From NCBI GenBank assembly GCA_001972305.1, contig BDDD01001955.1:148055-212054 (forward strand): DNA of 64,000 nt, in the 5' to 3' direction. The translations under genes and the position numbers were made by a program. Shown piece after piece: positions 1,089-49,637 of the stretch. Below the pieces are notes generated by a model. It was not told where the DNA came from and did no database searches. It saw nothing but the letters and a program-made list of their open reading frames with translations. The DNA comes from Cephalotus follicularis. Taxonomy: Eukaryota > Streptophyta > Magnoliopsida > Oxalidales > Cephalotaceae. How positions within the stretch are numbered: position 1 is the first letter of the stretch; each line of letters begins with the position of its first letter.

Positions 1089-4000
1089 TGTCACATCCCG
1101 TTTTCCAAACGACGTATAAATGGTAGCAATTAACATAAATAATCCGGCTTATCAAATATGACGATAAATTTTAAACCTTTTAGACAGATATATCAGTTGC
1201 GGAAGCCTTTAATTATAAGCCGAACTAACAACGTAACACGCATCCCATACTGCGTGTTACAATAAAATAACATCACTGTTAACTGCTCAAGAAACGGAGC
1301 ATGATATAACCATCATTTAGACCATAAACATCTAGCATAGAGAAGTTCAGACATATAAATCAATTACCAAAGCATTGTTCCAAAACTCCAAATACAATAT
1401 CCAAAATGAACAAGTACAAAACATCATCCTCTCCAACATGAGTAGGATTATCATAATACAAAAATAGCTTAAACAACCTTCAGATAATAGCTCCCAAAAT
1501 AGCTTTAACCGCACTTGTCCGATTATCTCTGTCAATCTGAAATAGTAGGGGGGTTAGCCTTTGTCCTCACTCGGCTAAGCATAAAATACATTTTGGGATC
1601 AAGTAATGAATGTCATGAAATGAATGCATTCATGATGCAGTACGTGAATGACATAGGATATACATGAACGCATATATACATCCGCAAGCAGGTATAACCC
1701 ATGGGTCACAAAAGCACAAATACGAGACTATCCCCAAAGGGGCCAGATACAACGATCAGGTCACGAAGGACACATCAAGCCAGATCAAAGTTGCTGACAC
1801 CCAGGCTCAACAACCGGTTACTTGCACAACAGTGCTTAGTAACCAGATGGGAGTCCCTAGCTACTTGCCCAACAAAACTCAGTAACCATTTAATGGGAAA
1901 CCCTAGCTACTTGCCCAACAGAGCTTAGTGGCTAACGTATACGAAACTTCCAACTGCTTCCCAACAGAGCTAAGTAGTGGAATTCCTGGCTACTTACCCA
2001 ACAGAGTTTAGTAACCCAAACAAGCCATCACAAGTAATTAGCATATAAGAAATACATGCAACAAACATCCCAAATAAGCATCAGTCCTTTTAAACATAGT
2101 TTACCATTTCAGCTACTCACCCAACAGAGTTTTAGTAGTTATCAAATTTTCGCAGTCCTTTTCAAGAAACTTATAAGTGTAAATTCTTGAAAATATATGC
2201 TTATATATTTGCCCAAAATACCAGGGTCCCTTTTCAATCATTTTCAAGTAATTTAGTGTATCATAAAATACTTGCAAACCGTATATTAAAAATATACTCC
2301 GATCCTTTAAAAATACTCATGTTCGTATAACATAATTTAAATTATGTGAAACCGTTTCGCAATCCTTTTTGGAAAATATTCATTTCCGTCATAATCCATT
2401 TTCAAGTAATTTATTATGTATAAAATACTTGTCGATATTACATTTGTTCAAATGTATAACTAGTCTTTGCACGGTATTTAATCCTTTGAAATTATTTATT
2501 TCAGTATACATAATTTCAAACAATTGAAATCATTTGTACAGTCCTTATTAGGAAATATATGTATTTCCACACAATATCATATACATATTTCTCAAATCTA
2601 AATCATTTAAGAAATCATGCGGTATCACAACGAAGCAAATCACAACAGTATTAAATGCAACCATATGCTCAAACTTGCCTAGGGTCGCTTCTAGAATCGT
2701 TCCAGAGCTAACGGGTCCAAAATGGGTCAAACCATACAACCCAGGAGGAAAGACGTCGATGTCTTTCCAAACGCGTCGATGTCCATTGCCCCAAAAGCAT
2801 CGAGGTTCGTTTCCAAAGTCACAGCTCAAAAAAGTACGAATGCGTTGACGTCTTTCTGTAGGCGTCGATGCCTACGAACCCAAAACCCTTAGGTATCGAC
2901 GTTCATCACAACCCGTCGACGTTTAAGGTAGGAACCTTAATACGTCCTCGCGTTATGTACAAGTCCAATGCATAGCAACAAAAGATGTCGATGCCTTCCA
3001 TAGACGTCGATGTTTAAGTGATTCCAGCAGGTATCCATTCATCCAATCTCCAATTCCAAGGGAGAAAACATCCTCCATCCACACATGCAATTCAAGATAT
3101 ATTGCTGACAGTGTAACATACATAACATGTTATCTACATATATAACCAGATCATCAACCCACCAGTAATCCATAAAGTCCAAAAGCAACATTGCAGTTCT
3201 GCAAATGTTTGAAATAGACATCGATGCTTAACTAAGGCGTCGACGTCTATTGCCTCATCATATAAAGACGTCGATGTTTACTACAAAAGCGTCGACATTT
3301 TAAGAGCCCAGAACACTGTCTCTTTCGTTCTATCCACAAACAGGGGTATTCAACCCTTATGCACTTACATTCAAGCAAGGGATTCACACAGAAATCAACA
3401 TGCATGCATGATCTTTACCAATAGGCGTTCATATCATCAACCAAGCATTTAGTTCAACTCCAAACCAGCATGCAATTCATGCATTTCATTCATGGCAACA
3501 CATTAGTTTGAACTCAAAATGCACGTATACTTCCCCTACCTCTGGTTTCAAGTTAGAAACCTTGAAAGTCCACCTCTTTGTGTCCCCGGGGTTGATCACA
3601 GCAGCTCCAAGGTTATCCCGTAGCTGCACCTCCACCTCCAAGTTTCCAAGAACTCCACTGGTCCAGTAATGGCAGAACTCCCTCTCCTCACCCACTGTTT
3701 CTTTCTCTCACTAGTGTTTTGTCGAACCAGGGATGAAGAGAGGAGGCATTTTATGTAGGTCTCACATCCTTTTTCCTTCACTGTCCCGTTGCATGCCTCT
3801 CACAGGCTCCATTTCCCATTTCTTTTCTCTTTCCCAGTTCTGTCTCACTTCTTTTGCAGGATCAGGCATTGAAGGTGGCACACAGCCTGCATGCACTCCC
3901 AAGTGTCATGCCCTTCCTTCCATTCCAGTACCTGCTTGCCTGGCTTCAAGCTAGCATGCTCAACACGTATCGTCCATGTCCCAAGGCACCTGCAAAGGCT

Positions 4001-4418
4001 TTTAAAAGTTTTCCCCTTGCACGTTATTTGTCAGCAAAGTAACTTGCCCGACGTTTATTTAAAAGACGTCGACGTCTTCCATAGACGTCGATGTCTTTTC
4101 CCCTTTATACGTGAGGGTCGATGCCTTTGCCTACGTCAACGTGCATGTACACATGCATTCACGTACGCCTTTGCTCCCATAGGCCTCGACGTCTTTCAAA
4201 AGACGTCGATGCGTTTAGTGCAAACTGCGCCATTTTGCCTCTAATTGCACCTTTTAGAATTTCTTTAACATCTCCATCATTCCTTCTTCCAAGCTCTAAC
4301 CCTTTAAATTTTTGGAAAGTATCATTTAAGTTAAAAAAAATCATGCCATTCCCATAAATTCAATAATAGTATTTCAATGAAATTGAAATATCACATTGTG
4401 TAAAGCTTGGGCGTTACA
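1089..4418 (-). mobile_element. S1: solo LTR, minus orientation, inside G1 gag
   Basis: The segment starts TGTCACATCCCG and ends GGGCGTTACA; in reverse this is a TGTAACGCCC...GATGTGACA LTR of the G1/G4 type. It is flanked by the 5-bp TSD ATATG at 1084-1088 and 4419-4423; removing the segment and one copy of ATATG restores the gag reading order. No internal coding region remains, so it is a solo LTR left by LTR-LTR recombination. It holds many paired GTCGAC-core motifs (2749-3300 and 4062-4212) and six stem-loops (1816-2140). Short reading frames inside it show no similarity to anything I know. Confidence 0.93.
1816..2140 (-). repeat. Six tandem stem-loops with a shared loop in S1
   Basis: Six hairpins share the loop consensus TGCCCAACAGAGCTT (plus-strand reading) but differ in their stems: 1816-1822/1838-1844 (GGTTACT/AGTAACC, perfect), 1862-1865/1881-1884, 1904-1911/1927-1934 (TAGCTACT/AGTGGCTA, one wobble), 1953-1959/1972-1978 (ACTGCTT/AAGTAGT, one wobble), 1988-1994/2010-2016 (one mismatch) and 2111-2117/2134-2140 (one wobble). 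G1's own 3' LTR has comparable hairpins at 10438-10463 and 10470-10493. Confidence 0.75.
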
Positions 4419-8514: not shown

Positions 8515-8688
8515 TGTAACGCACGGTATTTTCGTTATTGTAATATTTCGTTTTAAGATGTAATCTTATGTTGAATTAATGAAAATATTGGAGATTTTGA
8601 CCTCAATGATGTTTTCCAAACCCTAAATATTGTTTTGAGGAAAGGAATGTGTATGTTAAACCAAAAGGGTACAGTTTTGGGATAAACG

Positions 8689-8840
8689 CGTCGATGTCTT
8701 TGGGAAGCCGTCGACGTCTATGGGAACACGGGCGCACGTGAATGCATGTACATGCACGTCGATGTAGATGAAGACATCGACACCCTCTTATGAAAGAGGA
8801 AAAGACATCGACGTCTAAGGAAAGACGTTGACGTCTTTGA
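8689..8840 (+). promoter_or_regulatory. GTCGAC-core motif cluster 1 in G1 3' LTR (function unknown)
   Basis: Near-palindromes of the form GACRTCGAYGTC occur with TCGA cores at 8691, 8711, 8759, 8777, 8808 and a TTGA variant at 8828. Neighbouring pairs are 18-20 bp apart. Two more clusters lie at 9594-9690 and 9893-10025. The motif contains GACGTC, the ACGT-core C-box type bound by plant bZIP factors (known), but binding here is only a guess. Confidence 0.6.
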
Positions 8841-10001
8841 AAAGAACATCTGTCATGTTATCCACTGACAGAATAACATGCAATGGGGCAACTTTTGAGG
8901 CATCATCCAGGCATCTTGACATGCACAATGCGACGTGTTGATCAAGCTGGTGTGTTGCCAGGCATGCTCCAAAACGTGTTCCTCAACTGGTGCATGCAAT
9001 GGGATGTGCCATCTCTTCACCTACAACCTGCAGAAGAAAAGGGAATGAGAACCAAAAACAGGAGGGTGAGAGGGGTGAGCACGGGTGTGTATGGGTGCAT
9101 GTGAAACAAGAGAGAAGGGGAGGACTACTGCCAGCATAAAACACCTCTTCCTTCCCCTCATTCTCAGCTAAACACAGTGAGAAAAGAGACAGAACAGAGA
9201 AAGAAGGAGAGAAGATAGAACCACCATTGTTGAGCACTTGGAGCGTGGACCTTGGAGCTCCTAGGATTGGAACTTGGGCAAGTTAGGAGCTGCTGTGAGC
9301 AACCCTTGGAACACAAAGAGGTGGACTTTCTAGTTCCTAGCTTGGAACAACAAGGTAGGGCAAAGTGATGATTCTTATACATGCATTTTGAGTTTTAAGA
9401 TAATGAATGCCATTGGTGAATTGCACGATTATGGGTGAATTGTAATCTCTGGATTTGTTGTGAGGGCTACTGTGATGTACTAAGTAACCATGCGTGCATA
9501 ATGTACGTAAATATTTGAACTGGTTTGTGTAATGGATGGTTTGGTTATGACCTGGTGTGTTAAAACCATGGAAATGACGTTCTGGGCTGAACAGACATCG
9601 ACGTCTACATAAAGATGTCGATGCCTTCATGTGTGAATGCGAAAGACATCGATGTTTGACTAAAAACATCGACGCCTTTTCTGGGTATTCGTAGAACAGT
9701 AGTGCTTACTGCAGATGGTGAATTGCCCACTTGTGGTTGCATGTTTATTCATGAATCGATGTTCTGGTTACATATTCTAATAACCAGTAGCATGCCTTAC
9801 ACCTTGAGAGGGTGAGGTTTGTTTACATGAAGGTTTAGGGGCCGGATTCTTCCCTCTAGAATAAAGATTCGCGAACTGATACCTCCTGGTATCATAAAGA
9901 CATCGACGTCTTTGTAAAAGCATCGATGTCTTTGGTCCAAAAACACCTGGGAATAACTGCACGAAATGTTGGGGCCTTAGGGTAAAGACGTCGACGCCCT
10001 G

Positions 10002-11185: not shown

Positions 11186-13015
11186 TGTATATCACTTTCT
11201 TGGCGCCTTCAAATGCACATGAAACGTGTTAGCGATGCTTGCACGGCGCTAGGCATGCGCAAGGCAAGTGGCCTTAGCAATTGCATGCAAAGGGATGTGG
11301 CTATCATCACCTGCAATTGCAGAAAATGAGACGAAAGAACAAAAAACTAGGAAAGAGGGGAAATGGGGAAATGGGACCTGGGAGATGCATGCAACAGAAA
11401 TAGAGAAGGGAAGAGAAAGTTTCCCAAAGCATAAATGCTCCTTTCTTCATCCCTGGTTCGGCTAAACACCTGACTGTGAACAAGAAAGGAAAAATAGTTA
11501 GGAGAGATAAACACTTCCTCCATTGTTGAGTGGACCAAAGCTTGGAGAGCTTGAGGATTGGAGATGCTCGAACCAAGACTTAAAGAGGTGGACATTCTAG
11601 TTCCTAACTTGGAAAAAAGAGGTAGGGGACATTAGTGAATTTGTACACGCAAATTGACATCAAAAGTTACTGGTTTTTTTTATTTCTGGTATGCATGAAT
11701 TGCATGTTAAATTTGGATGGTTGGATTGCTAATATGTTTACTGTGAACTGTAAACTGATCATGCATGTGTAATCTAAGTCAATAATCGAATTGGATTTGC
11801 ATGATTATTGAGTTGTTTTCCCTAGTTTTGGTTGGAACAATGAAAGTGACGCCCCTGGACTGTTTAAGCGTCGACGCTCACGTTAAGCGTCAACGCCTTC
11901 ATGTGTAAAAACGGAAATAAACATCGATTTTCAAGAAAGCGTTGACGACTTGCATGAACAATTGCAGAGCTGGGAAAATTTTTTATGGTTTGCATGCAAT
12001 GTTCACTGGTGATTTGCATGAATGGTTGATGGACTGATGAATTGGTTACATGTATGGATAACCTGTAGTGTGTATCACATCCGTGAGTAAGATTTATGGG
12101 ATTTCATGGAAGTTTGGAGGTTGGATTTTCCCATGGAATGGAGACTGCTGAAGTGATATCATCTGGTATCACGAAGCGTCGACGCCTTTGGTAAAGAGTC
12201 GAGGCCTTTAGTTTTGATACGCCTGAAATTGAATGCATGAAACATTGACACTTTGAGGTGATAAGCGTCGATGCCCAGAGGATAAGCGTGGTTTGAATGA
12301 TTTTACTGGGATTGGACATGTTAGCTCCAAAACGACTCTAGAAACGACTCTAGGCACGTTTGAGCATATGGTTGCATTGCACTTGCATTTTATTGGGTCT
12401 GGATTGTGGATTGTTGATTGAACTGGATTGTTTAATTGCTTTAAAAATGACTTATCATTTTTAGGGAGTTGCACACTTGAATTGTTGCAAATCGCTATTT
12501 TGCATAAACTGCTATGTTCAAACTGAAACGTAGTTTTGAAAATGGATTGATGCATGTTTTGAATAAACATGCCGTTTAAAAAGGATTGTTACATATTTTA
12601 AACAAATGTGTCGTTTGAAGTATTTTACGATGCATATTTTACTTGGAAAAGGGATTGTTTCATATATTGGCAAATATATACGTTTTCAAGTGTTTATTTT
12701 TATAAATGACTTGAATTGGATTGTGATTGAGGATTGTGCCGTATTAGTTGCAACGGTGGAGATGCCATCGACTCTAGTGGGTGGGTTGGACTCTTGGGGC
12801 CAGGAGTTGGCGAGAGGAACCCATGTGTTGTAGTCAATAGTCGTCGTTCTAACTACTTTGGATTGGGGCCTGCTTCGAGTCATCCGGAGAGTGGTGGCCG
12901 GAGTGAGGAGCATAGTGTCTGGGCCAGGAGTTGGCGGCGCCTTCGTAGTTATGCAAATGGATTGTTGGATTGTAGCCATTTGGCCTATTTGCTCTATTGG
13001 CCGTTATACATGTAT

Positions 13016-16236: not shown

Positions 16237-16292
16237 TGTCACACCCCGTTCATCGAGAAGGTAACAGTAAAGCAGTAAGGCAATTAACACAT
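16237..16292 (-). repeat. G4 3' LTR, outer end
   Basis: Read in reverse, this 56-bp piece matches the end of the G1 5' LTR ('gccttaccgctttaatg...ggggtgtgaca'). It is cut at 16293 by the G3 insertion; the rest of this LTR is at 23515-25176. Confidence 0.88.
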
Positions 16293-17479
16293 TGTAATAC
16301 CCTGCTTGCCTGTACGTATTTTCTTACGGGTTTTATTTGTTTTCGTTTAAGTAATTGTATGTTTTTTCGTTGGGTTTATGTTTTGGGCTGACTGATACCA
16401 GCCTTAATTTTGGGTATGTTGGTATGGGTATTTTGTTTGGTGTATTTAGTCATGTTATCATTATTATTACAAAACCGTTTTACCAAATACATAATTATTA
16501 TCTTACATTTATATATAATTTTATTAAATTGTATTTTTAGAAATTGTTTTAAAACAAAATCCTTTTTTTTATTTCTTTCCTTTTATTTTTCCTCTCAAAC
16601 TCTCCCTCTCTTTCACGACATCTCTCTCCCTCTCAATCACTCTCTCCCGTATCCCATTCTTTCCTATCTCCCTCTCCCTCACAACTCTATCTCTTTCCTT
16701 CTTATCTCCCAAAAAATCAGCCCTATTTCCTTATCCAGCAGATTGGATTTTCCCTTTTTGCTATCCTTCCCGTTTTGGTCTCTTGTTGATAAATATGTAG
16801 GCCAAAGTCTTTGTTTCTGCGATATCTCTTTGCTGTGATTGCTGCCGAACCTGCCATTGGAAGAGTCATTGTGTTTTTGGTGTTCTTGCTTCATTAATCA
16901 GGTTAGTTTCTTCATGGTTTCAATGTAGGAATCCTTTTTGGCAATGTTGGTATAGTTGGCAGGCTTGAATTTTTATGTCTTCCTTTTGTTTTTCTTTTTG
17001 ATCATCCATTGTGTCATTCGTATTGGTGTTCCTGCAACTGTTTTTGACATCCAACAGGTTGGTTTCCTATATTGTTATGTCTTGGCAATTGGTTTTGGAT
17101 TGTTGCCATCAAAATTTTTGTATATTGGTTGCTAGAGGAGTAGTTTTGATTTCTACCTCCTGCTTTCTATCAATAATAATTCCTGTGGTTGTAACGATCT
17201 GTAGACACATAGGACATGTTATGTAATCTGGTTTTGATGCATGTGATCATCATAAATTGACATAATTGAAAGTATGCAATTGTATGTTATGGTTTAAAGT
17301 CGTTGTCACCTTAAATAATTTTCTTTCAACATGTCTTTGTCGAATTCTGTGTTGTAACAATGTTTTACATGCCATATGAAGTTGTTTTGCATGTTGGTAA
17401 TCTTCTGGTGTCGAAAAATCCGAGTCTTGGTTGCTAAAATTGCACAAAATCGCACTGAACTGCTGTTCTGTCACCAGAA

Positions 17480-17687
17480 CAGCCGACTGCCCATATGAAC
17501 AAGTCGACTGTCTAGTTTGAATAGTCGACTGCATTGTGCAAACAGCCGACTATCTTGTGTTGAGTAGTTGACTGGACCCCTGATTCAGTCGACTGCCTGC
17601 AGTTTGGGTTGAGTAGTTGACTGGCCCTGTTGTGTAGTCGACTGCCACCCCTTGTTAGTTGACTGGATTTTTGAAACAGACGGCTGG
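17480..17687 (+). promoter_or_regulatory. Ten-copy YAGTCGACTG array at 21-bp register (function unknown)
   Basis: Core positions (TCGA or one-base variants) are 17483, 17504, 17525, 17546, 17568, 17589, 17617, 17638, 17659 and 17680: spacings 21, 21, 21, 22, 21, 28, 21, 21, 21. The 10-bp palindrome YAGTCGACTG is kept (variants TTGA, CCGA, ACGG) while the 11-bp spacers are unrelated to each other. That pattern is unlike a simple tandem duplication and suggests selection on motif and helical phase; the binder is unknown. Confidence 0.8.
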
Positions 17688-18278
17688 AATGTCCTGTAGC
17701 TTTCTGTTTTCATCCGTTTATTCTTTCGATGATCCGGGTCTATTTCTAAACATCGTTATGATTCTGTTTTATGCTCAAAAAGAATTTTAGACCCTTATTT
17801 GAACATTGTTATGTTTTTTAGATTATTGTGCTACGTGAAGCAAAATAAATTTACCGGATATTCGTAAGTTAATCTGTGGTCGCATAAGGTACGGATTCTT
17901 CGTTCCTTGATACACTCTTACTGATTCGATTCTTTTTTGAAAATAAATACAGATTCTTGTTTTGGGTTATTATTCAGTTTTGTGAATATGCTTCCTTTTG
18001 GTTTATGAACTCCGTTATATTTGGATTTTGAAAATAAAGTCACTTGATATTTTATGAAGTAACAATTTCTGACTTTATAATGTGTTTACGAAAAGTTATG
18101 CAATCATCTCTTTATTGTGAAATTAAATGAGTTGATTTTTCTGATTATGAAAGTATGTGAAACTATATCGTTTGAGAACGATTTATGATAATGTTTGGGA
18201 ATACATTTTCTATGTGTTTTAAATGATTTGATGAAATCATAGTTTTTGAAATGGTGAAATACTGAGCTTTTATAACCA

Positions 18279-18297
18279 CCTATGGGGGTACCATAGG
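18279..18297 (+). repeat. Hairpin in G3 LTR
   Basis: CCTATGG (18279-18285) and CCATAGG (18291-18297) form a perfect 7-bp stem with loop GGGTA. Confidence 0.75.
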
Positions 18298-18954
18298 CAT
18301 GCTGTGAGCCTGGCACGGGGGCATGACACTTCCCGTAACGGTGTGATTTGTTTACGGCGTCTCTCTAGGATATCCTTTGATAGGATTTTGGATAGAGGCG
18401 TATAGATCGATCCTAGTTATATGTTATTGGGTTATGTTTTGGGATATGGGAATTGTATGTGTTGTGCCGTATACTGCAATTCCATTTGGCAATGTGGGTA
18501 TCGCGAACCCTTGCTACTATATGATATGTTATGGGTTTTGGTGCTCAGTTATGGATCCTATGTTTGGGAAAGGTACACTTTATGGTTTTCAAAGTTATGA
18601 ACTTGGTTTATATGTTTTTCTGTGGGCATTTATAAAACATGTTTAAAATATCGTTTTGGAAATCTTCTTGCTTTAAAATATCGTTTACTGTTTTATATTC
18701 TATATCCGTACTGAGGTTTGCTCAGCCGCGTTTTTGTTTCCATGGGCAGGTGATCAGGAGCAAAGGGGCAATGTGTGATGAGAGTGACTCCCATATGTCT
18801 GAGGATCATCTAGGAGCTGATCCCTCTGTGTTTATGTGGTCGTAGTGGGGACCCGTTTATTAAACAATATATTAAATTGATTTCTTACCTTTGGATTACG
18901 CATAAGTTTCAGTTTATGATCAGATTTTATATGTTTTGGATATGCTTTAAACCA

Positions 18955-19761
18955 NNNNNNNNNNNNNNNNNNNNNNNNNNNNNNNNNNNNNNNNNNNNNN
19001 NNNNNNNNNNNNNNNNNNNNNNNNNNNNNNNNNNNNNNNNNNNNNNNNNNNNNNNNNNNNNNNNNNNNNNNNNNNNNNNNNNNNNNNNNNNNNNNNNNNN
19101 NNNNNNNNNNNNNNNNNNNNNNNNNNNNNNNNNNNNNNNNNNNNNNNNNNNNNNNNNNNNNNNNNNNNNNNNNNNNNNNNNNNNNNNNNNNNNNNNNNNN
19201 NNNNNNNNNNNNNNNNNNNNNNNNNNNNNNNNNNNNNNNNNNNNNNNNNNNNNNNNNNNNNNNNNNNNNNNNNNNNNNNNNNNNNNNNNNNNNNNNNNNN
19301 NNNNNNNNNNNNNNNNNNNNNNNNNNNNNNNNNNNNNNNNNNNNNNNNNNNNNNNNNNNNNNNNNNNNNNNNNNNNNNNNNNNNNNNNNNNNNNNNNNNN
19401 NNNNNNNNNNNNNNNNNNNNNNNNNNNNNNNNNNNNNNNNNNNNNNNNNNNNNNNNNNNNNNNNNNNNNNNNNNNNNNNNNNNNNNNNNNNNNNNNNNNN
19501 NNNNNNNNNNNNNNNNNNNNNNNNNNNNNNNNNNNNNNNNNNNNNNNNNNNNNNNNNNNNNNNNNNNNNNNNNNNNNNNNNNNNNNNNNNNNNNNNNNNN
19601 NNNNNNNNNNNNNNNNNNNNNNNNNNNNNNNNNNNNNNNNNNNNNNNNNNNNNNNNNNNNNNNNNNNNNNNNNNNNNNNNNNNNNNNNNNNNNNNNNNNN
19701 NNNNNNNNNNNNNNNNNNNNNNNNNNNNNNNNNNNNNNNNNNNNNNNNNNNNNNNNNNNNN
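18955..19761. other. Assembly gap (807 N)
   Basis: Unsequenced run. By position it should hold the G3 LTR 3' end, the primer-binding site and the gag leader. Reading frames spanning it have no meaning. Confidence 0.99.
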
Positions 19762-19796
19762 CAGTTTGATATCACGTGTTTCGGTTTCTTTCGTAG

Positions 19797-23283: not shown

Positions 23284-23514
23284 GCGTGCACGCCCCTGCA
23301 TTCACGTGTACCTCAATTCTCATAGGCGTCGACGTCTTTCCAAAGACGTCGATGTCTTTATCCCAAAATAGCGCCGTTTCAAGCTTTGACATACACATTC
23401 CATTTCCAAGACCATAATTAGGGTTTGCAAGTATCCTCAACATACTCATAAAATCAAGTTTAAGATTACATCATAAATCGAAGTATAAAATTCAGGAAAA
23501 TACTGGGCGTTACA
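23284..23514 (-). repeat. Orphan LTR fragment (G1/S1 family), minus
   Basis: It matches the right end of S1 (4130-4418) in the same reversed orientation: a 'cattcacgt' segment, the pair TCGACGTCTTTCCAAAGACG near 23325, and the terminal GGGCGTTACA. It lies between the G3 3' end and the inner part of the G4 3' LTR, so it must come from a further insertion that was mostly deleted. Confidence 0.75.
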
Positions 23515-25176
23515 AAATCGTTTTCCAAAGATATTTAAAAATACGATATCAATATTCGTTTTGTACTAAAAATAGCAGTTTCAATTCATGTATGCATTTC
23601 TAAAGTATCAACACATTACAAATCATTCGAGTACAAATAGTACAAAACAGGCAGTAAACAGTGTATATGCAATGTATACAAATGCTCAAGTACACCCTAA
23701 CAGGAATCGGGATCATTCCGCATCGTTTAAGGGCAAACAGCAGTCCATCCAGTCAGCTGGAATCCTCACCAGTCGACTGTTCTGGGTCGAGCAGTACTAG
23801 TAGTCGGCTGGTTCCTTCTACCAGTCGACTGTCCATTAGGCAGTCCACTGTTATCCTTCAACAGTCGACTTTTACAGTACACCCATACGAAAACATTACC
23901 CAGATTTCACTTTCCACCATTTTCTGGGCAGGATGAAGTATGAACAGTCGACTGCTTTCCATTGGTAGTCGACTGGTTTCATTGAGTAGTCGACTGCCTT
24001 CCTTCGACAGTCGACTGCTCTGCGAACCAGTGGCATGCAAATCGATCCATCTACTCCAACGGATCATGGTAAGCAGATAATTCAAGCTCAAGGACAGGGA
24101 TACAACTACAGGTTATCATATCATCCGTATAACAGTTCATCCAACATTCATTTCATCATGCAAGCCAATCTCATGATAAGGTTCAACATGCATACACTTA
24201 ATCACATTTGAATCTCAGTAGGCATGCATAGCAGTTGAAGACAGTAGCAACCACATTCTAAAATCAGTAGCTACAACTCACAAAACCAGGCATTTTGAAT
24301 CATGGAACATGCAGTAAATTTAAACTCAAAATGCCATTACAACTTCCCCTACCTTTGATTCCAAGTTAGGAATCTGTAAGTCCACCTCTTTGTGTTCCAA
24401 CAGTAACGTTCTGAGCGACCCAGAAGCTCCAACTCCAAGCCCAGCAGCTCCAAGAACAGCCCAATAGCTCCAACCCGAGCTCCAAGCTTCAACAATGGTG
24501 AACACTCTCTTTTCTTCGTGTTTTTCTCACTACTGTCCTCTTGGTTCCTTGTCCTATCAGTATCTGGCGAAGGAGGTGAGGAGAGACGTTTTAAGCAGAC
24601 ATTTTAAGCAGAGGTTTTCTCCTCATTCTCCCTTAGCTCCCTCACATGGCACTAAATGCCATATTCTCACCTCTAACACTTGCATGCACACACACATGTC
24701 AATCCACCTCTTCCCCTCAGTTTCTGCAGGTTCTAGCATTCATGTGCATGGCATACACATTTCATCTAGCATCAGATGGCGCCTGTAAGACGCTTTTATA
24801 AGTGGCTGCATGTGATCTCGTCAGATGCAAATAAAACAGGGCACAATCCAGTCGGCTGCCTTTCCCTGGCAGTCGGCTGTTCGCCTGGCAGTCTGTTGCC
24901 AAGTGTCACGACAGTTGGCCAGTCGACTGGTTCATCCCACCAGTCGACTGCTCCCATACGCAGCCATCCAGTCGGCTGGTCTCCCGTGCCAATCGACTGC
25001 CTCCAGCTTATTTGCCACGTAATCACACTTCCAAGTGTATAATCGATTTAAAAACAACATCGTTATAGTTTGGGAAAACATCATCAAATTCGGAAAAAGC
25101 TGTCATTTTATTAATCCCACAAATAAGGTACAATTACATTGTGAAATTACAGTACATGAAAATTACGGGCGTTACA
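23515..25176 (-). repeat. G4 3' LTR, inner part
   Basis: It begins 'aaatcgttttccaaag' and ends GGGCGTTACA; it is almost identical to 29478-31123. It carries three clusters of CAGTCGACTG-type motifs: 23750-23870, 23945-24018 and 24849-25000. Identical 97-codon frames in both LTR copies merely reflect LTR identity and are not taken as a gene. Confidence 0.9.
23945..24018 (-). promoter_or_regulatory. Four CAGTCGACTG motifs at exact 21-bp spacing (function unknown)
   Basis: TCGA cores lie at 23948, 23969, 23990 and 24011, each 21 bp apart, with unrelated spacers. Two sister clusters in the same LTR have cores at 23753, 23773, 23804, 23825, 23844, 23865 and at 24852, 24873, 24892, 24923, 24944, 24972, 24993; 21 is the commonest spacing and 28 recurs. 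Confidence 0.8.
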
Positions 25177-28523: not shown

Positions 28524-29466
28524 CAGTACTCTAGCATAATAGCCATATATATACAGAGTACCTCCAACAACAGAAGTCGACTCTGGAACCTCTGTCTGAG
28601 CAAGTACAAAAATTCTACCTTTTGCGATGCCCTTGCCGGTATCCCTCCTCTGTGACGGTCCCGCCGCCGCACCGCTACTACTCCCCGGTCCAGTAGGCGC
28701 TGTAGTAGGACTCTTTGGGAAGTCCTTAACTGAATGACCAGGTGCCCTGCACCTCAAGCACCAACCATTAAATCTCCAGCAATCTTTTTGTTGATGGCCG
28801 GTACGACCACAGTAATAGCATCCTCCAGATCTAGCATTACTCCCTTGGCTAGGAGTACCCTGTGAAGCTGTTTGTTGAGACTTGTTCTTCGACGACTTTG
28901 TCGGAGAACCACCATCTTGCCATATTGATGATGCCGGTCAGGACTGGGTAGGACTCTGTTTACTCTCCGTTGCACGAGCTCTCTCAGCCCGGTCCTCGCT
29001 GGATATCGTCTCCAGCAGTCTTGCTTTCTGAGCCACCTCCACAAAAGTCCTCAGCACCATAACTCTAATTCTCGACCGAAGGTCCGGTCGCAGGACTCTC
29101 AGGAACCTCCGAATCTTCTTCTCCTCATCAGCTACCAGATATGGTGAGTGTCTGGCTAGCTTCATAAACCTGGCCTGGTACTCGGCCACAGTCATCTCCC
29201 CTTGACGTAACTCAAGAAGCTCTGTCTCCCTTCGCTCTTGCTCAATACGCGGAACATAAGTCTCCAAGAACTCTGTCTGGAATCAGTCCCAAGTACTGTC
29301 CAGTCTCTGTGATTCCCATTTTGCTTTAACCATCTCCCACCAATGAGTGGCCTCACCCCATAGGCGGTACACAGCAAACTTCAGTTTCTGAGCGTCAGTA
29401 CTGTCCATCACCTCAAAGATCTTCTCTAGATCTTGCAGCCATCTTTCAGCAATCATAGCATCAAGA
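28524..29466 (-). pseudogene. G4 gag, N-terminus deleted
   Basis: The frame begins mid-gag at LDAMIAERWLQDLEKIFEVMD because the LTR has been joined to it near 29466. It goes on through THWWEMVKAKWES and the block ELLELRQGEMTVAEYQARF to SKQSPTQS, where a TGA stops it at 28938. Two knuckles follow: [14 protein letters not shown] (intact) and [14 protein letters not shown], in which the last Cys is Phe. From the second knuckle the frame runs open into protease, so gag and pol appear to be one frame in this lineage. Confidence 0.88.
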
Positions 29467-31123
29467 GTTTCAGTAGTGGAAATCGTTTTCCAAAGATATT
29501 TGAAAATACGATATCAATATTCGTTTTGTACTCAAAATAGCAGTTTCAATTCACATATGCATTTCTAAAGTATCAACACATTGGAAATCATAATTCGAGT
29601 ACAAACAGTACAAAACAGGCATTAAACAGTGTATATGCAATGCATACAAATGCCCAAATGCACCCTAACAGGAATCGGTATCGTTCCGCATCGTTTTAGG
29701 GCAAACAGCAGTCCATCCAGTCGGCTGGAATCCTCACCAGTCGACTGTTCTGGGTCGAGCAGTACTAGTAGTCGGCTGGTTCCTTCTGCCAGTCGACTGT
29801 CCATTAGGCAATCGGCTGTTATCCTTCAACAGTCGACTGTTACAGTACACCTATACGAAAACATTACCCAGATTTCACTTTCCACCATTTTCTGGGCAGG
29901 ATGAAGTATGAATAGTCGACTGCTTTCCATTGGTAGTCGACTGGTTTCATTGAGTAGTCAACTGCCTTCCTTCGACAGTCGACTGCTCTGCGAACCAGTG
30001 GCATGCAAATCGATCCATCTACTCCAACGGATCATGGTAAGCAGATAATTCAAGCTCAAGGACAGGGATACAACTACAGGTTATCATATCATCCGTATAA
30101 CAGTTCATCAAACATTCATTTCATCATGCAAGCCAATATCATGATAAGGTTCAACATGCATACACTTAATCACATTTGAATATCAGTAGGCAAGCATAGC
30201 AGTTGAAGACAGTAGCAACCACATTCTAAAATCAGTAGCTACAACTCACAAAACCAGGCATTTTGAATCATGGAACATGCAGTAAATTTAAACTCAAAAT
30301 GCCATTACAACTTCCCCTACCTTTGATTCCAAGTTAGGAATCTGTAAGTCCACCTCTTTGTGTTCCAACAGTAACGTTCTGAGCGACCCAGAAGCTCCAA
30401 CTCCAAGCCCAGCAGCTCCAAGAACAGCCCAATAGCTCCAACCCGAGCTCCAAGCTTCAACAATGGTGAACACTCTCTTTTCTTCGTGTTTTTCTCACTA
30501 CTGTCCTCTTGGTTCCTTGTCCTATCAGTATCTGGCGAAGGAGGTGAGGAGAGACGTTTTAAGCAGACATTTTAAGCAGAGGTTTTCTCCTCATTCTCCC
30601 TTAGCTCCCTCACATGGCACTAAATGCCATATTCTCACCTCTAACACTTGCATGCACACACACATGTCAATCCACCTCTTCCCCTCAGTTTCTGCAGGTT
30701 CTAGCATTCATGTGCATGGCATACACATTTCATCTAGCATCAGATGGCGCCTGTAAGACGCTTTTATAAGTGGCTGCATGTGATCTCGTCAGATGCAAAT
30801 AAAACAGGGCACGATCCAGTCGGCTGCGTTTCCCTGGCAGTCAGCTGTTCGCCTGGCAGTATGTTGCCAAGTGTCACGACAGTTGGCCAGTCAACTGCTC
30901 CCATACGTAGCCATCCAGTCGACTGGTCTCCCGTGCCAGTCGACTGCCTCCAGCTTATTTGCCACGTAATCACACTTCCAAGTGTATAATCGATTTAAAA
31001 ACAACATCGTTATAGTTTGGGAAAACATCATCAAATTCGGAAATATCCGTCATTTTATTAATCCCACAAATAAGGTACAATTACATTATGAAATTACAGT
31101 ACATGAAAATTACGGGCGTTACA
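29466..31123 (-). repeat. G4 5' LTR (3' part deleted)
   Basis: It is nearly identical to 23515-25176 and ends GGGCGTTACA before the CATTG duplication. At its left it runs straight into mid-gag ('gagtttcagtagtgg'). Compared with the other copy it lacks 21 bp at about 30893, exactly one interval between two CAGTCGACTG motifs. Motif clusters lie at 29718-29836, 29912-29988 and 30818-30950. Confidence 0.92.
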
Positions 31124-31128
31124 CATTG

Positions 31129-35178: not shown

Positions 35179-37286
35179 TGTAACGCTTTGGATTTTTTGA
35201 GTTAATAAGAATGTCAGAATTTTCAACTTTGACGATGTTTTCCAAACTCAAATAGTGTTGATTTTCGAAGCGAAAATGCTAAAGAAATGATAAAGTGCAA
35301 GATTAAGTCAAAACGGCACAGTTTTGAGATAAAAGCGTCGACGGCTTCAGTAAAGCGTCGACTCCTAATCAATCAGAACGCGCGCTTAATTTAAACACAT
35401 GAGGGTCGACGCCTACATTCAAACCGTCGATGCTAAGTGTTGAATCATAGTCATGTTAGAACACTGACGGGAAAACGTGGGGCAAGGGAAAAGTGTATAT
35501 CACTTTCCCGGCGCCTTCACATGCACATGAAACGTGTTAGCCAAGCTTGCAAAGCGCTAGGCATGCGCCAGGCAATTGGCCTTAGCAATTGCATGCAAAG
35601 GGATGTGGCTTTGATCACCTCCAATTGCAAAAAATGAGAGGAAACAACAAAAAACTGGGAAGGAGGGGAAATGGGGGAATAGGACCTGGGAGATGCATGC
35701 AACGGAAAAAGAGAAGGGAAGAGAAAGTTTCCCAAAGCATAAATGCTCCTCTCTTCATCCCTGGTTTTGCTAAACACCTGAGTGTGAACTAGAAAGGAAA
35801 AACAGTCAAGAGAGATAAACACTTCCTTCATTGATGAGTGGACCGAAGCTTGGAGAGCTTGAGGATTGGAGCTGCTTAGACCTGGGAGCTCAACCACCAC
35901 TGTTCCAGGACTTAAAGAGTTGGACATTCTAGTTCCTAACTTGGAACAAAGAGGTAGGGGACTGTAGTGAATTTGTACAGGCAAATTGAGATCAAAAGTT
36001 ATTGGTTTTGTCATTTCTGGTATGCATGAATTGCGGGTTAAATTTGGATGGTTGCATTGTTGGATTGCTAATATGTTTACTGTGAACTATAAACTGATCA
36101 TGCATGTGTAATATAAGTCAATAATCAAATTGGATTTGCATGATTATTGAGTTATTTTCCCTGGTTTTGGTTGGAACAATTAAAGTGACGCTACTGGATT
36201 GTTTAAGCGTCGACGCCTTCGTGTGTAAAAAGGGCAATAAACGTCGACGTTCAAGAAAGCGTCGACGCCTTGCATGACCAATTGCAGAACTGGGAAAATT
36301 GTTTATGGTTTTCATGCAATGTTCACTAGTGATTTGCATGAATGGTTGATGGACTGATGAATTGGTTACATGTATGGACAACCTGTAGTGTGCACCACAT
36401 ATGTGAGTAACATTTCTAGTATTGCATGGAAGTTTGGGGGTTGGATTTTCCCCTGGAATGGAGACTGCTGAAGTGATATCTTCTGGTATCGCAAAAGTGT
36501 CGACGCCTAGAGGATAAGCGTGGACGCTTATCCTCCTAGTTTGAATGGTTTTACTTGGATTGCCCCCGTTTGCTCCGAAACGACTCTAGGCACGTTTGAG
36601 CATATGGTTGCATTGCACTTGCATTATATTGGGTATGGATTGTGGATTATTGATTGAAATGGATTGTTTAATTGCTTTAAAAATGTCTTATCATTTTTAG
36701 GGAGTTGCACTCATGAATTGTTTCAAATCGCTATTTTGCATAAACTGCTATGTTCAAACTGAAACGTAGTTTTGAAAATGGATTGATGCATGTTTTTAAT
36801 AAACAAGCCGTTTAAAAAGGATTGTTACATATTTTAAACAAATATGTCGTTTCAAGTATTTTATGATGCATATTTTACTTGGAAAAGGGATTGTTTGATA
36901 TATTGGCAAATATATACGTTTTCAAGTGTTTATTTTTATAAATGACTTGAATTGGGTTGTGATTGAGGATTGTGCCGTATTAGTTCTGGTGGTGGAGATG
37001 CCATCGACGTTAGTAGGCGGGTTGGACTCTTGGGGCCAGGAGTTGGCCAGAGGAACCCATGTGTTGTAGTCAATAGCCGTCGTGCTAACGACTTTGGATT
37101 GGGCCCTACTTCGAGTCATCCGGAGAGTGGTGGCTGGAGTGAGGAGTACAGTGTCTGGGCCAGCAGTTGGCAGCGCCTTCGTAGTTATGTAAATGGATTG
37201 TTGAATTGTCGCCATTCGGCATGTTTGCTCTATTGGCCGTTATACATGTATATTCACATATATATGTATTATTATCAGATACTATG
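35179..37286 (+). repeat. G2 3' LTR, part 1
   Basis: It starts TGTAACGC and matches 11186-13080 of the 5' LTR; it breaks after CTATG, where G5 is inserted, and resumes at 51895. Joined length is about 2633 bp. Motif clusters (AAGCGTCGACGCC type) lie at 35336-35432, 36206-36268 and 36498-36534. No gene is present. Confidence 0.93.
36511..36534 (+). repeat. Perfect 11-bp inverted repeat in G2 3' LTR
   Basis: AGGATAAGCGT (36511-36521) and ACGCTTATCCT (36524-36534) pair perfectly around GG. The 5' LTR copy near 12280 has lost its right arm; G1 has a shorter version at 10002-10025. Confidence 0.85.
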
Positions 37287-40173
37287 TGACACGCCCCGTT
37301 CCCGACCACCCCTGTCAGAGGACGGCAGTGCCAGGAGGAACGATCCTCCACCCGGATCCTTAACCTCAGCCACCAAACACCAACACTAAATCCCTAACAC
37401 TTAAGCCAAGGGAGCAGGCGTGAAAATGCACTGCATAGGAGAACTAAGCTCTCCAAACTAACACGCACTCAAGGCATTAAAACAAGAAATACTCAAGCAC
37501 CGAAAACGACGGCGTATCCCTAACCTTAATCCTGGGATCAATCTAAATGCCCGGGGACAACCGCCTTGCTGAGGACAACCACCCTAGGTCCCCGAACTTT
37601 CAACTTACACTATGGAGAGATAAAATCTCACAAAGACCCAGGACACAAAAGATCCACCAGGGCTCATACTTCAAAACTCCTCAAGGGACCTTGCGGGATA
37701 GAGGTCGGGAGGTCGGGCAAAACTAAGGAAAACCTTAAACTCTCTTTCAACGCCTATGAACTACGCCCGAGGAAAAAAACCCAGGGACACCACCCGACAT
37801 CAATCTAGGATTAGACTGACCCGTACTTAAAAGTCAACCTAAGGTCTGACTAGCTTGTGAACCTTACCCTCCTTTCCTCGGCATTTCAGCAGAGGTGTCG
37901 TTAGTTCCAGAGGGCCCGAGAAGGGTCTCCTAAGGATTCACCGAAGGCCTGGGCTGAGGAGACCTGCTCCTCTGCCGAGAGTTAGACAACTCCAAAACAT
38001 GCTTCTCACCTCCGCATCCCAAACACTTAGCAAAAATTAACAACATACAATAAAGGAAGATCTCATAACATAAAGCATATAAAGCATCAAGTGATTTATA
38101 CAAAATCCTTTGACAAAAAGAGGTTACACATCTTAGCATCATAAAATTTATACAAAAGCCCCCTAGAATGCCCCAAAATGCATGAAGGTTGCGCATGGCC
38201 AAGGAGCCATCCTTAGGTTCTTGCGTCCGGCGTCTACCTCTGTCAACACGCTTTCTCCTAGTGGATCTCAAGAACTCTGCAACACTGCTTCCTCTAAACA
38301 CAAAACTGATAGGGGATTAGCCCAACTGACTAGTGAGTAAGATTGAGGGAATTCCCAAGCAACCAACCACAGTGCTAAGAACAAGGTAAACGTGCCAAAT
38401 CCCCAAATGGGCCAAGGTCACCTCATGACTACCGTTCTACAAAAAAAGGGCTAGGGGTGAACTTGTACAAGAAATATTAATCACAAAAGAAAGCCCGAGG
38501 AGACAACAGAGCTACCAAACTCTATGATTGGTCTCAAGGAAAGATAACATCAACAAGTTATAACAATTATGCCAAGGAGCCGAGGATCAACAAAATGATA
38601 AGACTACAAGGATCAACAATTATCAAGAGGACTACTGGTACTGCATCAGTCACAAGCACAATTCCACACGCACACATGCACACATCATACCCACACATTT
38701 CCATACCCGGAACCACCTCGGCAACACACATAACAGCTCCACTGAAATCCATCAACGTGATCATGGGCTACAGGACTGTACACATCCCTCATATACGCAT
38801 ATAGATACCCACTTCCAGAGCACCGTATGAACATCGCTGGAAGGGCTATGCGAGCACACCTCCCTCGGCAATCACACGTTGGCAAACCTCACATCATGAA
38901 CATCGACCGAAGGGCTACATAAGCACTTCCTTGTCGGCAATCACGAGTTTAGCACTACACCATACGAACATCAATCGAGGAGCTACCTCGTTGGTAATCA
39001 TACATCGCTAGTATCGTCCAAGGGGCCCGCGAATCACCTCTCAACTCCTCACTTGTGGAGATGACCGAGGAGAACTTTAGCTCAGAGCTAAGTGTATCAC
39101 CATTTAAAACATCTTGGCTAGCAGTCTCATGTCCGAGGACTCCATCATGACCTGACCACAGAAAGTAGCGGATCCTCGGCTGCTCTCACACATCATTCCG
39201 TCATCGACCAACGAAATGAGAAGATCTGGGTATGGAACCCAGGCACAGTCACACTCAACAGTTCATCATAGACAATGGCATTGCTGAATGGAATTGGGAT
39301 CGAACCCCACTCCTCTGCCCGCCATAATAAGTCTCATACACATCCACGTACCAGTAACCAGTGTCCAGAGAAGAACAACACATGATATCAAGAAAGGATG
39401 AAATACATGGAATTTAAGGAAGAACAACAATTGACCTGACATCGAGTCCTCTGCTCGGGTAACAGTATTTCAAACATGCTATGAACAACAAGACAACAGG
39501 AAAAGAAATCCTGGTCAAGGATAATATCATGGAAAGGCATATAAACAATGTACTCTTAGTATCAAATGATAGAAAAGGAAAACATCCCACTCACTAGTAT
39601 CTGCAGTCTCCTGCTAGCTTCCTTGTTGTGCGGACTCAACGCCTGGATCTTCTTCTACTAGATCAACACCCACTTCTTAGCCATAACAATCAACAACATT
39701 CGAGGAGCATGCATGAATCACAAACATGCACAAGCACTACAATAAAACTCCTCCTCGGCCTCGCAAGCCGTTAAACTACCGTTGAAGCTTCGTACCAACA
39801 CCAAGCCAAGAAGAACACTCATCTGCTAAACTCGTAGACTAGTAAGAAGGTTCCAACCTCAGAAGATGAACAAGCTTTCTAGATGAAACGGTGAAGAAGA
39901 AGAAATATGAAGAAAATCTTTCTCAAAGTGCTCCTTCCAACGTGAGTAGACAGAAGTGACCAACTGCCCAACTTCTTCAACAAGCTTCTCACACTTCCCA
40001 AGACACACACACAAAACTTCCCTTTCTTCCTTCACTCTTTAACCATCACTTGTACAAAAGGCCTTAAGCCACAAAGCCCAAACCAAACCCAACCGAGGAG
40101 AAATGAGAAAAAGAAAAATAAATTCTCGAAGGCCCAACATCAATTTATCCAAAAATTAATACGGGTCGTTACA
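37287..40173 (-). repeat. G5 3' LTR
   Basis: It runs from TGACACGCCCCG to GGGTCGTTACA and matches 45078-45713 plus 49638-51889. It contains a three-unit degenerate tandem repeat at 38827-39030. No gene is present in this 2.9 kb. Confidence 0.94.
38827..39030 (-). repeat. Three ~69-bp tandem repeats in G5 3' LTR
   Basis: Units start at 38827, 38896 and 38964, each opening 'a(t/c)gaacatc', then 'ggctac/gctat', 'cggcaatca'. The same array is present in the 5' LTR at about 50540-50740. Confidence 0.75.
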
Positions 40174-45713: not shown

Positions 45714-46104
45714 TGTAACGCCCGTAATTTTCATGTAATGTAATTTCACAATGTAAATGTACCTTATTTGTGAAATTAATAAAGGAATGGATTTCCAAGA
45801 CTTTGATGATGTTTTCCAAACTCTAATAATGTTAAATCTTAGAGTAAAAATGCTAAAACAATGTTAAAAGGATAAAACGACACTGTTCTGGGGGAAATGC
45901 GTCGACGCCTTTCTTAACACATCGACGTCCTTGAAGCAAAAGGAGCGCACGTAACTGCATGAACATGCACGTCGATGCATGCGAGGACATCGATGCCCTT
46001 GTCTAAAAAGGGGAAAGACGTCGATGTCTTTGTAGAAGACGTCGATGCATTAACATCGAATGTCAGGCATGTTACTCTGCTGACAAATAACGTGCAAAGA
46101 GAAA

Positions 46105-48148
46105 CGTTACATCCTTAGGTACTTTTTTTTTTCTAAAAGTACATAACATCATAAAATCACGTCTTTGTAAAATCGTACATAATCTTCAATTCATCTTTAC
46201 ACATAGTCATCTTATAAAAGGACGTCATAACCATATCATAGGTCTACATTACATAGGATCGTTCTTTTACATAAACACATATTACGGCGGAAAAACATTA
46301 TTCTTATTACATAACAAAACATAATGCGAATATCATCGCATAGCCTTCGTTTATCAAAAATTCCTTCTTAAGAGCTTCCTCTAAGCTCGCATTCTCCACT
46401 CATTCATTTCCTGAAAACATTTTATTTGAAAACAGCATTGAAAGGAATGAGCTCAAAATAGCTCAGTAAGGTGTTTTTATAGTAAACACATTTCATCATA
46501 ACATTTTTCTAGCCAAAATATATATAACTAGAACATTTCGTAAAACATATCATTTTCTAGTTAATATCATAACTAGATCATTTCGTAAACATAAACATTA
46601 TTAAAAACCTTAATGAACCCTTTATACCGCTTCACCGGGGCATTGTGCACTCCCCGATTACTATCCTTACATCACATGCATGTCCGCGAGCACTTTACGC
46701 TTCATTAACATTGAGCACTTCGCTCCATTCCCCTTGGAACAAAATCCAAGGGCGGTTCATTCATCATTTAATTTGAGTGATCAGCTCAAAGCAATCATAA
46801 AAATCATTTCATAACATCTCTTTCACAATCCATAAACTTTTCTTTCATTTGAGTAATTGACTCAAATAATTCATAAAAATCAGTTTTGCATCATTTTGCG
46901 AAAGCTAGTAATTCATATAGAAATAAGCCTTTTCAGTAAAAACTTAAAACATGAACATTAAAGTAGACATATTTACGAATTCAGAAAGCTCAAGATCACA
47001 ACAATTGGTAGAGAATTGAATCCTCTACGAATTTTTGAAAGTGGCTGATTTCTTAAGGAAACAGGGCATGAGCAGTAAAATGAATCCTTGATTCTCATCA
47101 AGAATTCGACATAATTTCGAGATGCATAAAACATAACAGTTAAAGAGGACATCTTAAGGTTTTCTAGCCATTTAATTTTTCATCAAGAAACGAGTGAGAT
47201 ATGATTTAAATAAGCTACTGCATAATCCAGGAATAGAACAGTGCCTGAACAGCAATTTAAAACTTGGATTTCCATCAAGAAAACAATAGAATCTTGAAAC
47301 ATGCAAAGCATAACATTTAAAGAATACATCTTAAAGTTTCCAGAACAGCAAACCATTCGAAAATACATTGAGAATTGAACAAGTTATCAATAAAAGAATC
47401 TGCTGCAAAATTAAGAACAAAACAGGGGAAGCTTTGACATTAGTGGGTGTAAGATTTCCTTACCTTAGCTTTAGAATTCCTTTCTCTATTGCTTTCCACA
47501 AATTCTACACTTCACACTCTGCAGGATTACTCTCTTTCTCAGCTCAAATTAACTGAGTTCAAGGTTCTTTGCCATTAAATAGAAGGATGGCTTATGGGGT
47601 AAGTTTCTTCCCCCCTCTCACACACTTAATTCTCTCTCCATGTGACAAAATTTAACCAATCCAAGTGTTGCACTTGTTAGATCCCCAGATAACACCTTAT
47701 AGCATCCTCCCCTGGCCTGCCACGTGTCCCCAATTAAAGAATTTTACTTACAAAATGACAAAAAGTCAGATTTTACCTTTGTCTGCAGCTTAAAGCGTCG
47801 ACCGTTTCCTTCTAAGCGTCGGTGCCTAAGGGTTTTACCTGAGTTTTTCACCTCTATCCCGACTAAAGCGTCGACTCTTTATCCCAAAGCGTCGACGGTT
47901 TGAGTGCTTTGTCCAATTTACCCTTGCACTGGTTTAAAGCGCAGATAGAAGGGGTTTAAGCATCGACTTTTACTTCCACAGCGTCGGCGCTTTAAATGGA
48001 ACTGTCGGCGCTTTAGACAGTTTTCCTTCTCCCCCGTACTCCCCGAGCGTAGGGTCATACTACGGGTCCCTTAAACTATTTGCCAATTTACACAATAGAA
48101 ATCATTTTTCATAATTAAATATCTTAAATGGAAATTTGGGTCATTACA
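46105..48148 (-). mobile_element. S4: LTR-like insertion in S3, minus
   Basis: Read in reverse it starts TGTAATGACCC and ends near GGATGTAACG. Its 5' end and general make-up resemble the G3-type LTR (TGTAATACCC) more than the LTR around it. It holds no pol or gag, so it is a solo or partial LTR. No clean TSD is seen, and S3 sequence is missing beside it, so a deletion followed. It has an exact 21-bp GTCGAC-core array at 47790-48012. Confidence 0.7.
47790..48012 (-). promoter_or_regulatory. AAGCGTCGAC motif array at 21-bp register in S4 (function unknown)
   Basis: Cores lie at 47798/47819, 47871/47892 and 47963/47984/48005; every neighbour spacing within a group is exactly 21 bp. Spacers are unrelated. 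The motif reads (A)AAGCGTCGACNNTT, sharing GTCGAC with the G3 and G4 arrays but with different flanks. Confidence 0.75.
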
Positions 48149-49637
48149 CTAAGGTTCCCTCCTTAACGCATCGACGCCGTGAACAATACGCTGTCGTTCT
48201 AAGGTTCCAGACCTTGAGCGTCGACGCGTATGAAATGGACATGGACGCCTTCTGCAGTAGAACGCGCTGACTCTAAGGACTTGGACATCAACGTTAATGA
48301 AAAGACATCGACGCCTTTTTAATGGGCATTGACGTCTTCGGTACTGTTTGGGGATTTCTTTATCTAACAATACGAAACGATCCCGATTCCTGTTAGAGTG
48401 CATTTGAGCATTTGTATGCATTGCACATACACTGTTTACTGCCTGTTTGTATTGCTTGAGATCGGATTATGATTTCTAATGTGTCTTTGCTTTAGAAATG
48501 CATATGTAAATTAAAACTACTATATTGAGTACAAATCAAATATTGATATCGTATTTTCAAACATCTTTGGAAAGTGATTTCCACTACTGAAACTGTTTAA
48601 AAGTATTTTCTACTGAAAATGCAATATTTCAAATGTTGTCACTTTGAAACATTTTGGAAATAACCTGTCTGTTGTGGATCTAAACGATCACTACTATCCT
48701 GTTCACTGTACTGTTACTGCTTGAATTCACTTTTGCTCTGTGAATTGTTATGTGTTTGTGCTTGAGCCACTGGTTGCATGGCGGAGGCTGCCAGCGCCGG
48801 CTAGTGGTAGGGTTGACCTAGGGGCCAGGAGTATGGCTGGGTAACTCACTGTACTGTTGCCTCGCTCGGTTTCCTGGAGTAGGGACCGGAGTGGGAGTTG
48901 TAGCATGGGGCCAGGAGTAGGCAGCGTTACGCATACTGCCTGTTGTTGTGGTCCTATGTTGACATCCTGTACTGCCTATTGGTCCTTCTTGGACATTACT
49001 GTGCTTGTTGATGTAGCCCTGGCTGGGTTACTACTATACTGTTGTCGCATGCATATATTTTCATATGTATATATATGCCCCACTGATATTTTTCTGTACT
49101 GTTAAACTTATTTATTTTTTCATATATATAAATTGGGATTTCCACTGCACTGCATCATTCATGCATTCATATCATGACATGCTTGAATTTTAATCCCGAA
49201 CTACTTTTATGACTTAGCTGAGTGAGGACAAAGGCTAACCCCCTACTTTACAGATTGATGCAGTGGACCCGTTGGATTGGCATGGATGAAGAGCAAGTGC
49301 TATGTTGTTCTTAGTTTTACTATTCCCCTGTTGTGTAATAAACTGAGTTGTAAAGGGTTTCTGATGTATCATTCTCATGAATGTAACTTATGATGGATTT
49401 AAACTTGTACTGTGGTCACGCTCCGTTTACTGGGCGATTAACAATGATGGGCTTGTTTTGAGTAGCGTGTAGTATGGGATGCACGTTACGGGTTTACAGC
49501 TTATGAATTTTATGCTTCCGCAACTGACATCATGTTATAAGTTTAAATTTTATGGGTTTTACATGAGCTGTATTTATGTGTTAATTGCCTTACCGCTTTA
49601 AATGTTGTCTTCTCGATGAACGGGGTGTGACAGGTGT

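Follow-up and report, generated by a model that had tools for sequence, protein, structure and literature searches.

Several LTRs of Ty3/gypsy chromoviruses from Cephalotus follicularis carry arrays of short TCGA-centred palindromes, which come in three word flavours (CAGTCGACTG, GACRTCGAYGTC and AGCGTCGACGCC, here classes I to III) and whose neighbours mostly lie 18–22 bp apart. Going by the sequence, we consider it reasonably probable that such an array is a binding platform, built into the LTR and working at the DNA level, for a sequence-specific nuclear protein with an enhancer or derepression role. Directly visible in the 64-kb stretch of DNA analysed here (the window) are the arrays, their spacing, their concentration in LTRs, the up to two positions per LTR, the directionality of the sites and the differences in word. 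From these we infer protein binding, activation or derepression by this binding and a change of word with a change of partner: the binder would come from a gene outside the element, probably one of the host, several copies of it would occupy neighbouring sites about two helical turns apart, where together they would activate the retrotransposon's transcription or keep it open, and the words would follow a change of the partner or of its specificity.

The window holds plant LTR retrotransposons nested in one another. In a Pfam scan of ten open frames (five of element B, four of element A and one running through the array) elements A and B were recognised as Ty3/gypsy chromoviruses, presumably of the Tekay/Del type. 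The frames of B gave gag, zinc knuckle, protease, RT, RNase H, integrase and chromodomain, those of A zinc knuckle, RT, RNase H and chromodomain, with a C-terminal chromodomain frame of Ty3/gypsy type in both; the first gag frame of A and the frame through the array had no Pfam match. Among the best 120 of 7,897 matches, the nearest named proteins to the protease/RT frame of B are from Cephalotus follicularis, with at most 90% identity over 65% of the query. Rfam (gathering threshold) and ARAGORN gave no match in the window. Plus-strand elements are element 1 (gag-pol to 8514, 3' LTR from 8515), element X (broken off at 16237 and resuming at 31124), element A (LTR from 16293, gag ATG at 19797) and LTR E (45714–49632). 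On the minus strand lie element B (LTR homology at 23515–25176 and 29480–31123, 96% identical), element Y (LTRs at 37924–40173 and 49633–51889), a lone LTR (4418 down to about 1126) and the LTR fragment D (23285–23514). Except for B and Y, boundaries were deduced from homology and terminal TGTAA. By gag-pol, element 1 and B are the closest pair (80.1% over 4,240 bp), X is about 74–78% identical to either of them, with one element 1–X stretch of 82.7%, and Y and A are both about 64–71% identical to the others. At 29463–29480 the homology of the B 5' LTR passes directly into mid-gag, LTR end, primer site and gag start being absent, and 56651–57339 holds two unrelated tandem repeats whose periods are about 29 and 26/52 bp.

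Array A (17480..17686, plus strand) consists of ten class I sites (CAG[TC][CT]GACTG-like), defined as 10-mers with zero to two mismatches to CAGTCGACTG and starting at 17480, 17501, 17522, 17543, 17565, 17586, 17614, 17635, 17656 and 17677. It follows a TATA-like box at 16510 by about 970 bp in the visible part of the element A 5' LTR (16293..18954, plus strand), a single copy with deduced boundaries that starts with TGTAATACCC and whose end is hidden by an N gap (18955–19761). The earlier note had placed the array in an LTR, and we agree, the assignment resting on anatomy, as no second LTR of element A was found within the window. Element A is flanked by minus-strand LTR sequence, namely its last 55 bp (16238–16292) and its first 230 bp (23285–23514); the 3' LTR of A and most of the surrounding LTR are missing, so that either a deletion or a faulty assembly is probable here. 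The ten copies and their gaps (21, 21, 21, 22, 21, 28, 21, 21, 21) are exactly as first described. The two-turn register of 21 bp proposed for them stands for seven of the nine gaps, the exceptions being 22 and 28, the latter of which breaks the helical register. At up to one mismatch AGTCGACT occurs nine times in this LTR stretch, where 300 dinucleotide shuffles averaged 0.44 and never gave more than 4, and at least eight of nine gaps of 20–22 arose in none of 200,000 trials in which ten sites were placed randomly within the span; shuffles and random placement thus rule out a chance origin of the arrays. The spacers are unrelated, as the earlier note had seen (average identity between pairs 0.293, with 0.290 expected, p 0.44), which rules out an ordinary tandem repeat with a copied unit. 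Tandem Repeats Finder picks up only pieces of the array (17477–17532 and 17608–17666).

To see how far this extends, all 256 eight-base palindromes were scored, with 40 shuffles each, in eight LTR sequences from four elements and two lone LTRs, in the two Y LTRs and in three gag-pol regions, fragment D being left out. A TCGA-centred palindrome was enriched at or near the top in all eight LTR sequences; in the gag-pol regions and the Y LTRs no palindrome rose above the shuffle maximum. AGTCGACT ranks first in A (9 vs 0.4 expected), B 3' (15 vs 0.6) and B 5' (13 vs 0.2), and CGTCGACG in the lone LTR (14 vs 0.3), X 3' (10 vs 0.2) and E (12 vs 0.3), while in element 1 (9 vs 0.3) and X 5' (5 vs 0.2) it ties with ATATATAT. 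Three LTRs, that of A with 9 and those of B with 15 and 13, hold 37 of the 45 AGTCGACT-like matches of the window. TCGA-centred dyads number 90 in the window, where 27.9 are expected and 60 shuffles gave at most 42; 65 of them are in array LTRs, 2 in Y and 23 elsewhere. The spacing recurs as well: distances of 20–21 bp between neighbours are found again in other LTRs, and 15 pairs of TCGA dyads lie 18–22 bp apart in the window (0.05 expected, maximum 1), with none at 8–17 or 23–29 bp. Since gag-pol does not place the array-less Y clearly further away than A, the array feature is, by this comparison, not universal in this chromovirus group. Palindromes of CATGCATG/TGCATGCA type, presumably RY-element-like, are also enriched in the element 1-type, X and E LTRs (8740–8766, 4120–4170, 45940–45980 and other LTR places).

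The sites of each LTR, taken within two mismatches of the class consensus with weaker ones dropped (e.g. near 47871), form up to two clusters, the first at LTR positions of about 160–350 and the second starting 1.0–1.2 kb from the LTR start (2.1 kb in E). Array A occupies only the second position, element A having no upstream cluster. Element B (minus strand, class I) has six sites at 24849..24999 and ten at 23750..24017 in its 3' LTR, and five at 30817..30946 and ten at 29718..29985 in its 5' LTR, whose first cluster is shorter by one exact 21-bp unit, showing that units can be lost. In the 3' LTR of element 1 (plus strand, class II) six sites lie at 8687..8835 and seven at 9594..9998; the lone LTR (minus strand, class II) has five at 4065..4213 and ten at 2752..3278. 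LTR E (plus strand) combines six class II sites at 45898..46049 with seven of mixed class II/III at 47815..48336. Class III is represented by four sites in the X 5' LTR (11867..12275, plus strand), the start of which is missing, and by seven in the X 3' LTR (35334..36507, plus strand), where an isolated eighth at 37000–37011 may be chance. Fragment D holds two class II sites 20 bp apart (23325..23356, minus strand). Site totals are thus 10 in A, 16 and 15 in the LTRs of B, 13 in element 1, 15 in the lone LTR, 13 in E, 8 in X 3' and 4 in X 5'. The spacing of the first cluster is 20/48/18/31/20 in element 1, 20/50/18/31/21 in E, 20/48 in X 3', 20/68/30/19 in the lone LTR and 21/28/21/50/21 in B, so that a framework of 20/48–50/18/31/20–21 is common to element 1 and E and its first part also to X. 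The idea that all sites face one side of the helix is not supported: gaps of 28, 18 and 48–50 recur, and periodicity is not sharp at 10.5.

Different words can stand at the same places. Identity between the LTRs of E and B is 84.3% in the first 121 bp and 82.4% in a block of 216 bp near the 3' side, with no BLAST match between these blocks, and at the places where B has CAGTCGACTG, E shows words like GACRTCGAYGTC. Element 1 and B differ in class despite being the closest gag-pol pair, and A and B share class I with no BLAST match between their LTRs at E <= 0.01; the word may therefore have turned over faster than gag-pol, or arrays may have been exchanged between elements. A change of word between LTRs that are still 82–84% identical at their ends makes activator switching or escape from silencing directly testable.

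Concerning the promoter, TATA-like boxes occur in only three of the eight sequences scanned. The one in B 3' (near 24800) follows the first cluster by 49 bp and E has one further on, the first cluster being upstream of the box in both; the scan found none in element 1, the lone LTR and X 3'. A donor-like RAGGTAGGG occurs six times in the 64 kb, both strands searched, always in an array LTR and in sense direction: on the plus strand at 9352 (element 1, as AAG/GTAGGG), 11619 (X 5') and 35951 (X 3'), on the minus strand at 3534 (lone LTR, as GAG/GTAGGG), 24347 (B 3') and 30315 (B 5'). In element 1 and the lone LTR the second cluster comes after it. Element A has a donor-like AG/GTTAGT at 16902 instead, and LTR E gave no match to the donor patterns tried. 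All three intact gag starts (element 1, X and A) have an acceptor-like TAG 0–9 bases before the gag ATG, near 568, 13831 and 19796. In element A the putative leader intron would span 16902..19796 (plus strand) and end in an acceptor-like CGTAG adjoining the gag ATG at 19797, and the second cluster, which in this element is array A, is probably contained in such an intron.

The sites themselves are directional, which weakens the earlier picture of a fully symmetric site for a dimer. When 26 class I sites from A and B 3' (B 5' being left out as sister copy) were read in LTR sense direction, deviations numbered 13 in the 52 cells of the two inner left positions and 1 in the 52 cells of their mirror positions on the right (p 0.0009; for A by itself p 0.09, for B by itself p 0.01). 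The 5' flank is rich in purines, and the 3' flank does not mirror it. Of the 43 class II sites, 38 retain the central CpG, 17 the outer one on the left and 27 the outer one on the right (central against outer p 3e-5; left against right p 0.05). Decay of methylated CpG, which had been offered as the source of the variants, is not supported by these counts, nor by array A, where TTGA replaces TCGA in three of ten copies and TCAA in none, a one-sided pattern unlike that of simple CpG decay, and where two copies have GCCGAC, which is not CpG decay. The expectation that motifs are better conserved than spacers was borne out slightly in class II, where the first clusters of element 1, E and the lone LTR, compared in pairs, are 79, 74 and 85% identical in the motifs and 64, 67 and 81% in the spacers, one of three comparisons being below p 0.05. 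It failed for the two LTRs of B, which differ at 11 of 150 motif positions, 6 of 269 array spacer positions and 23 of 1,222 others (motif against all other positions p 0.0006, non-CpG alone p 0.03), so motifs decay faster than their surroundings after insertion. Faster variation of the motifs in B speaks against a binding platform, as do class II motifs that are hardly more conserved than their spacers, the TATA-like box in only three of eight sequences and the lack of an upstream cluster in A.

As to the partner, an AP2/ERF factor of the CBF/DREB type would be one testable candidate and the easiest to test, the CRT/DRE-like core naming a first protein family. RYCGAC, which we take to be a CBF site as such, is present on the sense strand in 54 of 81 sites and on either strand in 64 of 81. 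Exact GTCGAC is found in 4 of 10 sites in A, 9 of 16 in B, 7 of 8 in X 3', 2 of 13 each in element 1 and E and 2 of 15 in the lone LTR, and GTCGAC or GCCGAC in sense direction in 6 of 10 in A and 13 of 16 in B; such a factor would suit classes I and III better than class II. AP2 domains bind as monomers, so that the symmetric arms are left unexplained by CBF. A bZIP C-box reading of class II is disfavoured, with the outer CpGs varying most and class I lacking GACGTC, and the W-box (TTGACY) matches only the TTGA variants. Two sources tabulate RCCGAC as the core of CRT/DRE and GTCGAC as preferred by HvCBF2, an AP2 activator (PMC4222965, PMC4553201). The array itself can serve as bait for the binder, with the three motif classes as built-in specificity controls.

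Of the explanations that compete with a host-encoded binder, the one that survives best, though we regard it as improbable, is anti-silencing of the VANC type, in which a protein encoded by a transposon, in another copy or element, would bind the family-specific array and remove silent marks, changes of word leading to separate systems. Short noncoding motif arrays that differ between related elements are also described, in the text available, for the targets of VANC6 and VANC21, and some sunflower Tekay elements are described as encoding an extra protein with a nuclear signal; against this, Pfam recognised no extra, VANC-like protein in the nine frames of A and B. The VANDAL parallel drawn in the earlier note therefore stands for the motifs, which differ between related families, and not for the protein. 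No homologue came up in searches with two open frames that cross arrays, and no relative in protein-guided scans of viral and genome contig collections; three loci from a pattern scan of viral contigs were all in non-plant-looking coding DNA (L001 a 21-bp coding repeat, L002 an 18-bp coding repeat, L003 GC-rich). Still less probable is a role in RNA, where copies in the transcript would pair into hairpins for dimerisation or packaging, or for small-RNA processing: genomic RNA contains all LTR sequence and four of four arrays folded more stably than shuffles (z -3.76, -5.55, -3.36 and -5.82), but good folding is expected of any palindrome array, the common T to C change gives an A–C mismatch with the standard word in sense RNA, and the first clusters of B and E lie outside the R-U5 leader. 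Multiplication of a functionless 20–21 bp unit by slippage with later drift of the spacers is very unlikely, even with the exact 21-bp unit that separates the LTRs of B, the quick motif decay after insertion and class II spacers that look partly alike by eye, because slippage would have copied the spacers too (those of A are random-like, those of B give p 0.07), related LTRs carry different words at the same places and irregular gaps of 18, 31 and 48–50 are common to families.

Returning to the binding platform, we put forward tentatively a wider form of it, in which this chromovirus group would have a modular, family-specific address system in its LTRs, with docking arrays of near-fixed spacing, one before the promoter and one in the leader intron, the word being exchanged whole between close relatives at kept positions and each family being locked to a different dedicated activator or anti-silencing protein. 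If true, it would be a retrotransposon counterpart of VANC/VANDAL.

Compared with known systems, some array words contain the GTCGAC or RCCGAC of CRT/DRE, and the constrained right half fits CGAC; many sites, above all in class II, lack exact GTCGAC or RCCGAC, and palindromic arms and arrays at 20–21 bp are outside its definition. VANC proteins of Arabidopsis VANDALs (Mutator-like) target short noncoding motif arrays that diverge between related elements and whose units are gained and lost, and the text available does not describe motifs such as YAGTATTAY as palindromic (PMC5735166, PMC10398659). The likeness, noncoding motif arrays differing between related elements, is a functional parallel only, as VANDALs are DNA transposons encoding VANC and ours are LTR retrotransposons. 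A paper on maize Sirevirus palindromes is reportedly to be found in Genome Research (2016). LTR elements inserting at palindromes are reportedly the subject of another paper (PMC6911290). The closest known kind, which looks alike in its way of working, are the repeated motif (RM) boxes of Sirevirus (Ty1/copia) LTRs, according to the accessible part of PMC2829016 family-specific palindromes with at least eight copies per element that are grouped early in the LTR, ahead of the TATA box, and are called Sirevirus-specific within the Ty1/copia set examined. The RMs of Vitis (CGGTCGACCG) and Tnd-1 (ACAATCGATTGT) are both TCGA-centred there, the latter also lacking the CGG-CCG signature. Like RM boxes, the sites described here are palindromes in at least eight copies per element (four in X 5') with high mean 10-mer identity (0.80 in A, 0.87 in B). 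Their placement relative to the promoter gives a mixed picture: in B and E a TATA-like box follows the early cluster, the scan showed no such box in element 1, the lone LTR or X 3', and array A lies beyond its box. Unlike RM boxes, the words here are TCGA-centred without the CGG-CCG signature, and the arrays have a deep second cluster (the only one in A), near-fixed spacing and directional sites. The hosts also differ, being Ty3/gypsy chromoviruses and not Ty1/copia elements, and the accessible open-licence literature yielded no description of palindromic LTR arrays in Ty3/gypsy. Palindromic LTR arrays, described as a Sirevirus feature, are thus now seen in Ty3/gypsy chromoviruses.
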